Source: Bacteroidetes bacterium HGW-Bacteroidetes-1
Lineage (GTDB): Bacteria > Bacteroidota > Bacteroidia > Bacteroidales > F082
DNA: 64,000 bases
Direction of reading: 5' to 3'
NCBI GenBank assembly: GCA_002842755.1
Contig: PHDU01000005.1
Location: 1 to 64,000, forward strand
Shown: one piece after another, positions 3,214 to 47,143 of the stretch
How positions within the stretch are numbered: the first letter of the stretch is position 1
Layout: each line of letters starts with the position of its first letter
The notes under the pieces: model-generated
Database searches by the model: none
Seen by the model: the letters and a program-made list of their open reading frames with translations, nothing else
Told to the model about the DNA's origin: nothing
Translations under genes and position numbers: made by a program

Positions 3214-3790
3214 TTTCCTGTTCTACCTTTATCGCTTTATCTGCTTTATGTATCAAGTCTTCTAAGTGAGTCACTATAATCATTTGCATTCCCATCTGCT
3301 TTGATGTAACAGATATCCAATCAATAGCAAATGGTAATCTCACACCATCCAAGTTCTTGAACGGTTCATCAAGGATTAGAACCTGTCTTAATGTGCCTTT
3401 AAATATTCTCAAGTAAGAAATCCTGAGACATAAGCTGATGATATCAAGGACACCACCACCCTTACAATCTTTGAGTGGCGTTATTTTACCATCTGTATTA
3501 ATGTAAAGATCATAGAACAAACCTTTTTTATTCCGGTTTGGTATAACCTTAAACTCCATCTTTTTATCAGGGAAAACAGCCTTTAATGCCAAATTTGACA
3601 AATTTTCGAGTTTAGACTTCACTTCGTTCCTTGTAAACTCAGAAAAGCTATAAAGGAAATCAAGAGCTTTGGAAAACTTATCAAGGCTTTCTTCATTTAA
3701 TATAACCTGTTCTTTGCTTGTCTTGATCGTTCTTTCAAGGTGTTCTTTATAGGACTGAACCTTAATTAAACGTGAATGTAAGTCACTCAT
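3179..3790 (-). CDS. Rad50/SbcC-like ABC ATPase, C-terminal lobe as a separate protein
   Basis: The track starts at a TTG (3805); I prefer ATG 3790, which has GAGAAG upstream, giving 203 residues. An N-terminal coiled-coil helix (about 1-70) leads into an SMC-type C-lobe: KGGGVLD signature-like loop (about 110-116), LILDEPFKNLD Walker B plus D-loop (about 138-148) and VTHLEDL H-loop. There is no Walker A; that lies in the separate gene at 5105-6424. Together with the Mre11-like gene between them it would form an SbcCD/gp46-gp47-type end-processing nuclease. Confidence 0.85.
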   Translation of the reverse strand: MSDLHSRLIKVQSYKEHLERTIKTSKEQVILNEESLDKFSKALDFLYSFSEFTRNEVKSKLENLSNLALKAVFPDKKMEFKVIPNRNKKGLFYDLYINTDGKITPLKDCKGGGVLDIISLCLRISYLRIFKGTLRQVLILDEPFKNLDGVRLPFAIDWISVTSKQMGMQMIIVTHLEDLIHKADKAIKVEQENGISKVYEVKG

Positions 3791-27720: not shown

Positions 27721-28031
27721 TATATTTTACCACCTTCTATTGGTTTATTATCATTAAGACACCATTCGTTTAACCAATAATAATGCTCCCATTCATCGGG
27801 CGTTGCATTATATTGTTTCAATTTATCTTCTGTGAATTTGGCTGAATCTTTACCAGCTTCTTTCATCGTTTCAAGAGCCTGAACAAGTGCTAATACAAAC
27901 CCATCACCAATCAATTGTTTCTCTTTTTCAGGCCAGCGTTCACCATGCCTGTAAACTTCAAGAATTCCGTTGTTATTTTTAACTTGGTATTTTCCATCAT
28001 AAAGTGGAATTAGTTCTGGGTTATTGGTCAT
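27720..28031 (-). CDS. hypothetical protein
   Basis: 103 residues, acidic and Trp/Tyr-rich at the C-terminus (WEHYYWLNEWC). The start ATG overlaps the lipoprotein gene stop (ATGA). No family recognised. Confidence 0.7.
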   Translation of the reverse strand: MTNNPELIPLYDGKYQVKNNNGILEVYRHGERWPEKEKQLIGDGFVLALVQALETMKEAGKDSAKFTEDKLKQYNATPDEWEHYYWLNEWCLNDNKPIEGGKI

Positions 28032-28162
28032 TTATTCTTTACCTCAACATTATCTGGTAATAAGTCTTTATCAACAAGAATAGGCCCAACATCTAAGTGT
28101 TGGCCTCGATCACAACCTACAAAGATTAAGATGATGAACAGAATTAATACAACTTTTTTCAT
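28028..28162 (-). CDS. small lipoprotein
   Basis: Below the track cutoff. 44 residues: MKKVVLILFIILIFVGC with a lipobox (FVGC) at residues 14-17, then a short polar tail. An ATG six bases upstream (28168) is an alternative start. Probably lipidated and membrane-anchored; roles of such phage lipoproteins include superinfection exclusion, but nothing here proves that. Stop overlaps the next start. Confidence 0.72.
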   Translation of the reverse strand: MKKVVLILFIILIFVGCDRGQHLDVGPILVDKDLLPDNVEVKNK

Positions 28163-28173
28163 TCCCATTCACT

Positions 28174-43941: not shown

Positions 43942-44265
43942 ATGAGCACAACGACTTTTAGACCAATCACGATTTACAACTTGGAAAACCAAAGACCAAA
44001 TAAGCGACCATTTATAAGAATTGGTGCTGGCCCTGTTTGTATGAATGGTATGCGCGGAACTACAAGTGGAACAGCTTTTAACATAAACGAGGCTAGAGAG
44101 ATAATTGATATTTATGAATCTACAAGGAATCCAAGAATCCGTTTTGCGGATATGGATGATATTACATTGAGTAAAGAAGATATAGAAGATTTAAAATTCT
44201 TTGTTTTCTTTATGAAAAACTTTGAATATAAACCTAACCTTACAGGGGTGAAGCCCCTGAGTTAA
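43942..44265 (+). CDS. hypothetical protein
   Basis: 107 residues with AAAAGGATAAATAAAC upstream. Basic N-terminus, acidic helical C-terminus. The last residues (GVKPLS) are encoded by the hairpin at 44250-44278. Last plus-strand gene before the convergent lysis region. Confidence 0.7.
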   Translation: MSTTTFRPITIYNLENQRPNKRPFIRIGAGPVCMNGMRGTTSGTAFNINEAREIIDIYESTRNPRIRFADMDDITLSKEDIEDLKFFVFFMKNFEYKPNLTGVKPLS

Positions 44266-44278
44266 AAACAGGGGCTTC
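44250..44278. terminator. GC-rich hairpin between convergent transcription units
   Basis: Perfect 10-bp arms GAAGCCCCTG/CAGGGGCTTC around AGTTAAAAA. No U-tract on the plus strand. It separates the plus-strand unit from the minus-strand lysis genes and probably works in both directions. Similar hairpins also occur at IS200/IS605 ends, but no transposase is next to it. Confidence 0.6.
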
Positions 44279-44357: not shown

Positions 44358-44765
44358 TTATCTACCAGCAATTAAGGCCGCGCCAACAATGATTGTGAAG
44401 AGAATTGTTTTTGCTTTATCTCTGCGTCTTAATTGTTTTAATGATCGTTTCGCACTCGTTAATGATTTTGATTGCTCCGTCAACATCTTCTGTTGATTTC
44501 CCAATTTCAATAGAAACGTGTTCGATTCGTTCTCGGCTTTTACTAATTTCAGTTCTGACTGTTGTAATTCCTGCGCTGTGACTTGCAACATCTGCCTGTA
44601 ACTGTCTAGTTTCTGACGCAAGTTCGTTATTATTTCTTTCAAGCTTGTCAAGTTCTGACTCAAGCTTGCCACTTGTGCCCCGGTAATAGTATATGATTCC
44701 CGCGCAAATAATGGAAATGAGCAGGATAACGACAATAATACCAATAATATTATTACTCGTTTCAT
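44358..44765 (-). CDS. secreted coiled-coil protein with C-terminal membrane span, spanin-like (dual-coding)
   Basis: 135 residues from ATG 44765. An N-terminal signal sequence (MKRVIILLVLLSLSCSFPLFA; possible but imperfect lipobox at SLSC) is followed by a Gln/Leu-rich coiled coil (about 30-110) and a C-terminal span (ILFTIIVGAALIAG). This topology recalls unimolecular spanins such as T1 gp11, which fuse outer and inner membranes at lysis. Nearly all of it overlaps the other spanin-like ORF in another frame. Confidence 0.65.
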   Translation of the reverse strand: MKRVIILLVLLSLSCSFPLFARESYTITGAQVASLSQNLTSLKEIITNLRQKLDSYRQMLQVTAQELQQSELKLVKAENESNTFLLKLGNQQKMLTEQSKSLTSAKRSLKQLRRRDKAKTILFTIIVGAALIAGR

Positions 44766-44769
44766 TCAC
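44416..44769 (-). CDS. i-spanin (Rz)-like protein (dual-coding)
   Basis: 117 residues from GTG 44769, with GGAG 6 nt upstream; the track start 44823 is in the holin gene. N-terminal anchor (about 7-29, IIGIIVVILLISIICAGII), then a charged coiled coil with no Cys motif: Rz-like type II topology. Its start is 4 nt before the ATG of the overlapping ORF, and both share more than 340 nt in different frames. Holin and amidase genes precede it. Confidence 0.7.
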   Translation of the reverse strand: MNETSNNIIGIIVVILLISIICAGIIYYYRGTSGKLESELDKLERNNNELASETRQLQADVASHSAGITTVRTEISKSRERIEHVSIEIGKSTEDVDGAIKIINECETIIKTIKTQR

Positions 44770-45037
44770 AGGTAACTCCGGTTTCAACGACAGCAGATGC
44801 CGCAGTGGTGTATGAACGAACATTCAACCACTTATCAACAACTCTCATACTTGAACTTGAGGCGGCAGAAAGGATTGCGAAAAGCTCATAATTGAATTTT
44901 TCTGGATTGTAAATAGCAGTCCAAATTGAAATAAAAATGAACAGACCATAACCGATGAATGACATCAGCTTTGTGCTACTTACAATCCCATCATTACCAA
45001 GAAACATACCAAAAATAGATTTGAAAAAAGCCCTCAT
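44762..45037 (-). CDS. putative holin
   Basis: 91 residues. One clear span (about 25-44, MSFIGYGLFIFISIWTAIY) and a second hydrophobic segment (about 50-60), with charged ends. The SSTKLMSFIGYGLFI pattern and the terminal VVDKWLN resemble small phage holin-like proteins. Located between the amidase and the spanin-like genes and overlapping the latter by 8 bp. A role in timing membrane permeabilisation is inferred. Confidence 0.7.
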   Translation of the reverse strand: MRAFFKSIFGMFLGNDGIVSSTKLMSFIGYGLFIFISIWTAIYNPEKFNYELFAILSAASSSSMRVVDKWLNVRSYTTAASAVVETGVTCE

Positions 45038-45040
45038 AAT

Positions 45041-45580
45041 TCACTCCTCGAAATTCCAGTTTCGTAACTTCATTATGTTAATCAGATTGCTCAGGTTGTG
45101 GCCCGGACAAAGTGTTAATTCATAATCTCTGTGGTTTTTTATACATTTTGGTATATTCAAGTGTTTGTACTTTTCTTTAATATATCTTAACAAAAGGATA
45201 AATGATTTCAATGATCGTTTATCAACCTGTTCTACATTATAGTTTCCATAGAACATAATTGCAATCGTTGTGTTATCATAACTCTTACAATGACAACCAG
45301 CAGTTCCTAGAGGACGACCTTCATAAACAGTTCCATCCTGACAAATGATAAAATGATATTTTATATCATTTAAACCAAGTTTCTTAATGTGTTTGTTCTG
45401 TAAATAAAGGATTGAGTCTGGGCCTTTATAGTATTTAGAAGTGATCGTCCTTGGTCTACCAACTTCCATACCATAATGATGAATAACAATTCGTTCAGGA
45501 AAGATGTTTATATAAGGAAATTTTGGAGTAATCGCACCCCATTCTGCACGTTTTATTATTCGAAAAGCAGAGGAAGTCAT
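45041..45580 (-). CDS. endolysin, N-acetylmuramoyl-L-alanine amidase (PGRP/T7 lysozyme-like)
   Basis: 179 residues. Amidase_2 signatures: RAEWGA (about 11-16), IVIHHYG with a zinc-ligand His (about 31-37), YHFIICQDGTVYEGRP, and KNHRDYELTLCPGH with the remaining His and Cys ligands. Cuts the amide bond between MurNAc and the stem peptide. No signal peptide, so it depends on the holin. A second cell-wall enzyme is encoded at 46613. Confidence 0.93.
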   Translation of the reverse strand: MTSSAFRIIKRAEWGAITPKFPYINIFPERIVIHHYGMEVGRPRTITSKYYKGPDSILYLQNKHIKKLGLNDIKYHFIICQDGTVYEGRPLGTAGCHCKSYDNTTIAIMFYGNYNVEQVDKRSLKSFILLLRYIKEKYKHLNIPKCIKNHRDYELTLCPGHNLSNLINIMKLRNWNFEE

Positions 45581-46596
45581 TTTGTAAAGAACCTTTTATA
45601 GAAGTCGATTGATCTCTGTAATGATGTTGTTTCTTTTGAGAACTTATCGTTTTCAAAGATTTCAACATATTTTTCATGTGTGTAATCTGTTAATGGAATA
45701 ACAGGAATGTCTAGTTCTTCTCCAGCGATTGCCCGTGTATCTACACGAACAAGAACAACTTTACCACCAATTCCATGAATAGGTAAACCAAAATGAAGTC
45801 TTGTTGTAACACAATATTCAACGTGTTTATAGTAATCAATTATATCCATCGCATTATCGACATGTACTATATGATTACCAAACCATTCTTTGAGATGTGA
45901 TAGATCGCTTTTCTTAACCTGTGCAAAGTATAAACACGGCTTACCTGTTTTTAATTCCAGATATTCCTTTGTCTTTTTAAACTCTTCTACCAATCTATCT
46001 CGATCTTCTCTATGTTCAAAGTATGCAGCAGTTAAACAGATGGCGTTGATTGTATTATCTGTTTTTTCAACTCCACGAAATCTACAAGCAAATGTACCAG
46101 AACATGGTAGCAGTGTAGATTCTACATTCTGGCTATCAAGGAATGCCTGTGCCATTTTATCGCGAGTTGTAATAAGTTTTGTATGTAATAGACTTTTTTG
46201 TAAAACCATTTTTGTCAGTTCTGATTTATTCAAATGATCTGAAAATTCTTGTGGTGTCCAAAATTCAGATGGATAACCACCACCACCGGCAAGTCTTAGA
46301 ATTGGAACGTTCAATTCATTTAGATCGTCCCATATTTCATCGTCATAATACAACTTCCAATCGTCAAGATTATTATACTGTGGCATACCACCATAGATAA
46401 TGAAATCACATGATTTCATGGTGTTTAAATCTTGTTGTGAAAGTTTTGAAAACCGACTTATCAAATGCCATTCTATGCGTTCTGGCTTCAGTGCTTCGTT
46501 TAAAATGTGCTGCAAACCAAACCGGATAAAAACATCACCGATGTTAATGTGGCCGGTGTAGTCTTGAATTAAATTTGTCAGAATGGCAATTTTCAT
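45577..46596 (-). CDS. polysaccharide pyruvyl transferase-like protein
   Basis: 339 residues from ATG 46596, with GGAG about 10 nt upstream (the track start 46635 lies further up). The GHINIGDVFIRFGLQHIL start, FIIYGGMPQYNN and CVTTRLHFGLPIHG match the PS_pyruv_trans fold (two Rossmann-like domains with the R-H motif). Family members add pyruvyl groups to sugars or act as GT-B-like transferases. May modify host surface glycans or virion sugars; unusual inside a lysis module. Confidence 0.78.
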   Translation of the reverse strand: MKIAILTNLIQDYTGHINIGDVFIRFGLQHILNEALKPERIEWHLISRFSKLSQQDLNTMKSCDFIIYGGMPQYNNLDDWKLYYDDEIWDDLNELNVPILRLAGGGGYPSEFWTPQEFSDHLNKSELTKMVLQKSLLHTKLITTRDKMAQAFLDSQNVESTLLPCSGTFACRFRGVEKTDNTINAICLTAAYFEHREDRDRLVEEFKKTKEYLELKTGKPCLYFAQVKKSDLSHLKEWFGNHIVHVDNAMDIIDYYKHVEYCVTTRLHFGLPIHGIGGKVVLVRVDTRAIAGEELDIPVIPLTDYTHEKYVEIFENDKFSKETTSLQRSIDFYKRFFTK

Positions 46597-46612
46597 TCGA
46601 TGTCTACTCCAA

Positions 46613-47143
46613 TTAGAAATTTGTTTTAAGTTCACCAGTTACAAACAAGTGAGCCTCGGATTTACGTCTTCGTACAAGACCAGCAAGAACCTTCCCGCCG
46701 CCTTTATTCCATCTAAGGAACTGTGCAGGAACTTCATCATATTTCCCTTGATTCAAGAGCTTTAATAGTGTAGAAGATGCAAATGCACCAGCACCAACAT
46801 TGAAAGTGAATGATACAAGTGCATCAAATTGGTTCTGTGAAAGCGGCACTTTAACATGTTTAGTTACAACATCTTCAAATTTCGCCATATCCTTTTTCAA
46901 AAGAGTCTCAGCATCAAAATCACTTATTGTCATACCCTGTGGTGTTGGTTTACCAAGAGTTGGGCCAGTATGTCCATAACCAATAGTCCACACATTAGCA
47001 GGGCACAGATAACCCTTGTTATGCTTTCCTTCAAATGCTTTAATAAGCTGTAATCCAACATCGCTGATATGTGGAGGAATTTGCAACCCATGAGATACAG
47101 CCGGTTTAACTTCATCAGTGTAACCACATTTAGGACATTTCAT
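46613..47143 (-). CDS. GH24 lysozyme (muramidase) with N-terminal cysteine knuckle
   Basis: 176 residues. MKCPKCGYTDE at the N-terminus is a small zinc-knuckle-like element. The lysozyme core has AFEGKHNKGYLCPANVWTIGYGHTG with catalytic Glu38 and the conserved GYGHT, then FTFNVGAGAF and RWNKGGGKVLAGLVRRR. Cleaves MurNAc-GlcNAc bonds. The usual catalytic Asp position reads Cys (YLCPANV), as in some R21-type relatives. It may be a second endolysin. Confidence 0.9.
   Translation of the reverse strand: MKCPKCGYTDEVKPAVSHGLQIPPHISDVGLQLIKAFEGKHNKGYLCPANVWTIGYGHTGPTLGKPTPQGMTISDFDAETLLKKDMAKFEDVVTKHVKVPLSQNQFDALVSFTFNVGAGAFASSTLLKLLNQGKYDEVPAQFLRWNKGGGKVLAGLVRRRKSEAHLFVTGELKTNF

Follow-up and report, generated by a model that had tools for sequence, protein, structure and literature searches.

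Overlapping spanin genes are well known. In the available text of a spanin survey (PMC6139136), embedded arrangements account for 182/528 and overlapped arrangements for 228/528. Lambda Rz/Rz1 is of the embedded kind and P2 LysB/LysC of the overlapped kind, and in lambda, T7 and P2 the second gene lies in the +1 frame relative to the first. The same text describes the u-spanin as a mostly beta protein that needs an N-terminal lipoprotein signal. About 13% of phages in that survey have no recognisable spanin, for which lipoprotein-based searches or other reasons are named, and the survey suggests that spanins might also be of the type I membrane protein kind or use some other anchor.

The window analysed here comprises 64,000 nucleotides, positions 1 to 64,000 of contig PHDU01000005.1 from Bacteroidetes bacterium HGW-Bacteroidetes-1. 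Two frames on its minus strand are encoded by almost the same DNA. Frame A (44416..44769) encodes an i-spanin-like protein of 117 aa, which starts at a GTG (44769-44767) and has its stop at 44416. Frame B (44358..44765) encodes a putative exported protein of 135 aa, which starts at an ATG (44765-44763) and has its stop at 44358. B is +1 relative to A, and the dual-coding overlap of 350 nt (44416..44765, minus strand) covers 99% of A and 86% of B.

Like Rz/Rz1 and LysB/LysC, A and B are presumed envelope proteins from two mutually out-of-frame genes that close a holin-endolysin cassette, with the second gene in the same relative frame, and A shares with two-component spanins the i-spanin plan with a periplasmic Cys. 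In contrast to those pairs, in which the second gene typically begins at 0.4-0.5 of the length of the first, B starts 4 nt into A and extends beyond its end; the product of B is longer than that of A, predicted to be helical and not a conserved lipoprotein. Like the u-spanin T1 gp11, B carries both a signal for export at its N-terminus and a hydrophobic segment at its C-terminus, but it has no conserved lipobox, is modelled as a helix rather than beta, has a weak C-terminal TMD and is accompanied by an i-spanin-like protein. The cleaved signal peptide and C-terminal hydrophobic anchor predicted for B would also fit a type I (N-out, C-in) spanin, which is a suggestion in the available text of PMC6139136, although the anchor of B is short and the charges are on the unfavourable side. 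The near-coincident starts, a second protein that is longer and helical, and its lack of a lipobox look rare against the known overlapping spanins, of which the supplementary tables of that survey could list a comparably extreme overlap.

Lysis cassette and start region

The minus-strand order is amidase, holin-like gene, then A/B. The N-acetylmuramoyl-L-alanine amidase endolysin (45041..45580) matched Amidase_2 (E 6.8e-12) and the endolysin family phrog_1493 (E 2.9e-17). Between it and A/B lies a gene for a holin-like small membrane protein of 91 aa (44762..45037), the best conserved gene of the cassette (79-82%), which had no match to any holin family in family and PHROG searches. A second muralytic enzyme, a phage lysozyme (GH24), is encoded at 46613..47143 on the same strand (Phage_lysozyme E 2.2e-49; phrog_7 endolysin). 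A 352-aa ORF (45577-46635, minus strand) between the two muralytic enzymes shows polysaccharide pyruvyl transferase-like features, as read from its sequence.

In two related phage contigs, L004 and L005, a DUF5675 gene stands in place of the amidase of the window, so the enzyme upstream of the cassette appears exchangeable. A G+C-rich hairpin with a T-run lies directly 3' of B in both relatives; B therefore appears to be the transcript's final gene. The window has a perfect 10-bp inverted repeat, GAAGCCCCTG/CAGGGGCTTC (44250-44278), about 80 nt past frame B, where a converging plus-strand ORF (43942-44265) ends.

The octamer GTGAATGA (44762..44769, minus strand) holds the GTG start of A, the ATG start of B and the TGA stop of the holin-like gene in 8 nt, and is unchanged in L004 and L005. 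A Shine-Dalgarno-like GGAG (44776..44779, minus strand), read from the sequence, is located 6 nt from the GTG and 10 nt from the ATG, and AGAGG occurs at equivalent spacing in both relatives. A start of A at the GTG is supported by L005, in which an in-frame stop is followed by this GTG as the first start codon. The sequence-only reading had placed a GTG with a ribosome-binding site at 44769 and the ATG of a 135-residue frame at 44765, and the coordinates and the site were all recovered from the sequence. In L005 an in-frame hexamer repeat (3255-3290; NANANAN) was seen in the holin C-terminus, just before the A/B junction.

The openness of both frames is not exceptional by itself, because the contig is AT-rich and long open alternative frames exist elsewhere in the window, where same-strand ORFs share 333 and 321 nt with long genes.

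Conservation in related phages

IMG/VR and genome scans with the proteins, their alignments, a holin motif and the DNA pattern forced by joint A/B peptides yielded three distinct family members. The two diverged metagenomic contigs L004 and L005 were found in IMG/VR with the holin protein. Both keep A and B open, collinear and similar to the window, with identities to the window of 65% (L004) and 55% (L005) for B, 56% and 45% for A, and 75% and 68% for the overlap DNA. The earlier claim that more than 340 nt are dual-coding agrees with the measured 350 nt and with both frames kept in these relatives, neither of which carries the stop in one frame that had been named as refuting it.

A Caldithrix MAG locus (L010) has the same sequence as the L005 phage, and a further locus (L002) the same as the window. 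The window contig (110,279 bp) has a 120-kb counterpart in IMG/VR, with no differences across the 6.4 kb that were compared. Tblastn searches of the INPHARED phages (E up to 1) gave no match to frame A or B, and fold searches with both structure models gave none. HMM matches among 396 genomes of the phylum were coiled-coil noise, and a lead from phrog_2990 was rejected, as it led to DUF948-like cellular proteins.

Omp85 and 141 T9SS sorting domains mark the bin that holds the window contig as diderm; by the T9SS trait it is Bacteroidota-like, and the phage could be misbinned. Past the window, on contig C13, two intein-like insertions were read from the sequence (L032:18859-19983 and L032:14748-17132 (-)), one in a terminase-like gene and one in a head-morphogenesis-like gene, the latter insert being homing-endonuclease-like.

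Selection on the two frames

Raw codon-position counts were confounded by the fast evolution of B, and the analysis therefore relied on simulated nulls in which the observed proteins were taken as given. Evolution was simulated from the window sequence with holin-like synonymous drift while the observed proteins of one frame were enforced. When only B was enforced, the fraction of simulations in which A stayed open was about 3e-4 for L004 and 1e-4 for L005, or 0.004 and about 0.0013 when DNA identity was matched. When only A was enforced, B was open in 0.023 (L004) and 0.006 (L005). What puts the overlap above chance is the retention of two open, collinear and similar frames in L004 and L005, together with the failure of the single-frame nulls.

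Per site, A-changing differences silent in B amounted to 0.43, 0.435 and 0.39, B-changing differences silent in A to 0.28, 0.33 and 0.27, and synonymous differences in the holin gene to 0.61, 0.69 and 0.60, in three pairwise comparisons that share branches and are not independent (n=3 distinct sequences). Both one-frame-silent classes were below the holin synonymous rate, with Fisher p of 0.003-0.04 (A-changing) and 4e-5 to 2e-4 (B-changing). Both frames thus look protein-coding: a change that is silent in one of them but alters the other is seen less often than a silent change in the adjacent holin gene. This codon-level selection check on homologues, which had been proposed together with the original observation, was not uniform: both one-frame-silent classes were depressed, but NN and SN rates inside the overlap do not separate A from neutral (p 0.13-0.88; three sequences, low power). 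The 58-nt tail of B past the stop of A is conserved, with 22/43 substitutions at B third positions. Judged from these sequences, dual coding appears well supported and very probable.

Predicted properties of the two proteins

Residues 8-26 of A form a predicted TMD in all three members (KD17 2.9-3.25), with predicted type II topology, and a coiled coil follows. AlphaFold models A as one helix (residues 3-116, pLDDT 87). Cys22 and Cys106 are invariant in all three members, and Cys106 is the predicted periplasmic Cys that the i-spanin plan needs for an intermolecular disulfide. A matched the Rz-like spanin family phrog_214 (E 1.6e-5, residues 9-96, 3/3 members), a weak score that is confounded by coiled-coil composition and in part reflects a generic TMD and coiled coil. 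With its N-terminal anchor, modelled helical periplasmic part and invariant Cys106, frame A fits an i-spanin, and the description of A as an Rz-like anchor plus coiled coil holds for the TMD, the heptads and the helix model, with Rz-like PHROG matches of weak score.

B has a predicted signal peptide with a signal-peptidase-I-like LFA site common to all three members. Past it come a flexible 'ESYTIT-AQ' segment, a long helix, a basic stretch and a hydrophobic C-terminus, and AlphaFold models a single helix (residues 29-134, pLDDT 86). The net charge is +11 to +13. The C-terminal tail is weakly hydrophobic over 13-16 residues (KD17 1.4-2.0), and the positive charges of this segment lie on the would-be periplasmic side. 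A strict lipobox was found in 0/3 members; the window copy alone has a loose match, at C15, while L004 B has no Cys at all and C15 of L005 B is preceded by Phe. No recognised family was found for B in family, PHROG and tblastn searches.

The best reading of these features is that B is secreted and not a conserved lipoprotein. As none of the three members has a strict lipobox, the u-spanin label, as well as a strict o-spanin label, fails for B; the o-spanin-like trait that B has is an out-of-frame gene overlapping the i-spanin gene (350 nt, +1). The u-spanin topology first proposed for B accordingly found no support: the LFA site is kept in 3/3 members and the AlphaFold model is one helix. From the proposed succession of signal peptide, coiled coil and C-terminal membrane span, export and the helical middle stood, and the span is weak.

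Some resemblance of A and B is automatic, because a shift of one base leaves composition and a 21-nt period common to both frames. Given A only, the N-terminus of B was nearly as hydrophobic as observed (P 0.10-0.39), while given B only, the A TMD never arose (0/5000 in each of three phages). Heptad strength was above the by-product level for B given A (P 0.0004, 0.0014, 0.027) and for A given B (P 0.0008, 0.0014, 0.025). The N-terminal hydrophobicity of B is largely a by-product of the A anchor; the A anchor and both heptads are not by-products. What had been called an unusual pair of membrane-associated coiled coils is upheld in these latter respects, and hydrophobic N-termini in both frames are partly an artefact.

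A direct search around the cassette found no lipoprotein gene. A tiny ORF of 46 aa with a canonical lipobox, FVGC, is located at 28028-28168 (minus strand) in a tight operon. Its homologue in the phage of L004 (L059:1498-1623, minus strand) is 41 aa long and 43% identical, with the lipobox kept. Next to the latter, L059:1620-1856 (minus strand) is a 78-aa lipoprotein-like ORF (MLTGC) with a possible ATA start, in an ATAA overlapping the previous stop, behind GAGGAG; no homologue of it was found in the window contig.

Discussion

Both frames are open and conserved in three phages, in the context of a lysis cassette, and single-frame nulls are disfavoured. We consider it probable that A and B are a nearly completely dual-coded, two-component spanin-like pair, in which the second component would be a secreted non-lipoprotein and both would act in the envelope.

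If only A were a real gene, an i-spanin, B would be an open by-product of the composition and heptad periodicity of A. The A TMD codons would then account for the hydrophobic N-terminus of B, which has no known family. This is very unlikely, because only 0.6-2% of A-only simulations left B open, B is the better conserved of the two and has the conserved tail with mostly third-position substitutions, and differences that are A-silent and B-changing occur at half the frequency of synonymous ones in the holin gene. The converse, that B alone is real and A spurious, draws on the better conservation of B, its ATG start and the similar NN and SN rates in the overlap. It is hard to reconcile with an A frame open at ~1e-4 under B-only evolution, a TMD that never arose in 5000 simulations per phage, a conserved GTG ideally spaced from the Shine-Dalgarno sequence, the invariant Cys106 and the spanin PHROG matches, and we hold it to be most improbable.

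Two further readings accept A as an i-spanin and differ on the role of B. The outer-membrane partner of A could be the unlinked lipoprotein at 28028-28168, with B as, for example, a periplasmic lysis regulator or antiholin. The FVGC lipobox, kept in the phage of L004, and a cassette neighbourhood free of lipoprotein genes speak for this, and there are precedents in separated spanins and in the exported antiholin T4 RI, according to the available texts of PMC6139136 and PMC8385771. The 46-aa ORF may possibly be an unlinked o-spanin or an exclusion lipoprotein. It lies at a distance of 16 kb, next to a helicase gene and a zinc-ribbon gene, has only ~28 mature residues and is weakly like Cor-type exclusion lipoproteins (phrog_1119, E 0.15), and a regulator role of B would be conjecture; the reading as a whole is unlikely. 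That B is a genuine u-spanin, a lipoprotein with a C-terminal TMD overlapping a redundant i-spanin, is extremely improbable: against the loose lipobox match at C15 of the window copy and the C-terminal hydrophobic run stand the missing strict lipobox, the state of this position in L004 and L005, the conserved LFA and the one-helix model of B, where u-spanins are mainly beta in the available text of PMC6139136.

For the favoured spanin-like pair, the following course may be envisaged. Translation of A would begin from the Shine-Dalgarno site; ribosomes would reach the start of B either through that site as well or by re-initiating where the holin-like gene stops. A would be held in the inner membrane by its N-terminal TMD, and its helical coiled coil with the conserved Cys would reach into the periplasm. 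B, co-expressed and exported by a cleaved signal peptide, would form a long basic periplasmic helix whose short hydrophobic tail is probably in contact with a membrane. Once the holin has triggered and the peptidoglycan is broken down, A and B, most likely made together as late proteins, would disrupt the outer membrane as a periplasmic helical complex, in the manner of a two-component spanin that lacks a conserved lipoprotein anchor. More tentatively, the locus could represent lipoprotein-free outer-membrane disruption by a type II i-spanin and a signal-peptidase-I-processed helical partner that is tail-anchored or touches the outer membrane, from starts 4 nt apart.

The locus would be a case of extreme dual coding, with one stretch of 350 bases preserving both the anchors and the heptads of two helical envelope proteins. 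For phages without a recognisable spanin, a partner that is no lipoprotein and is concealed in the alternative frame of the i-spanin gene is a candidate route that can be tested.
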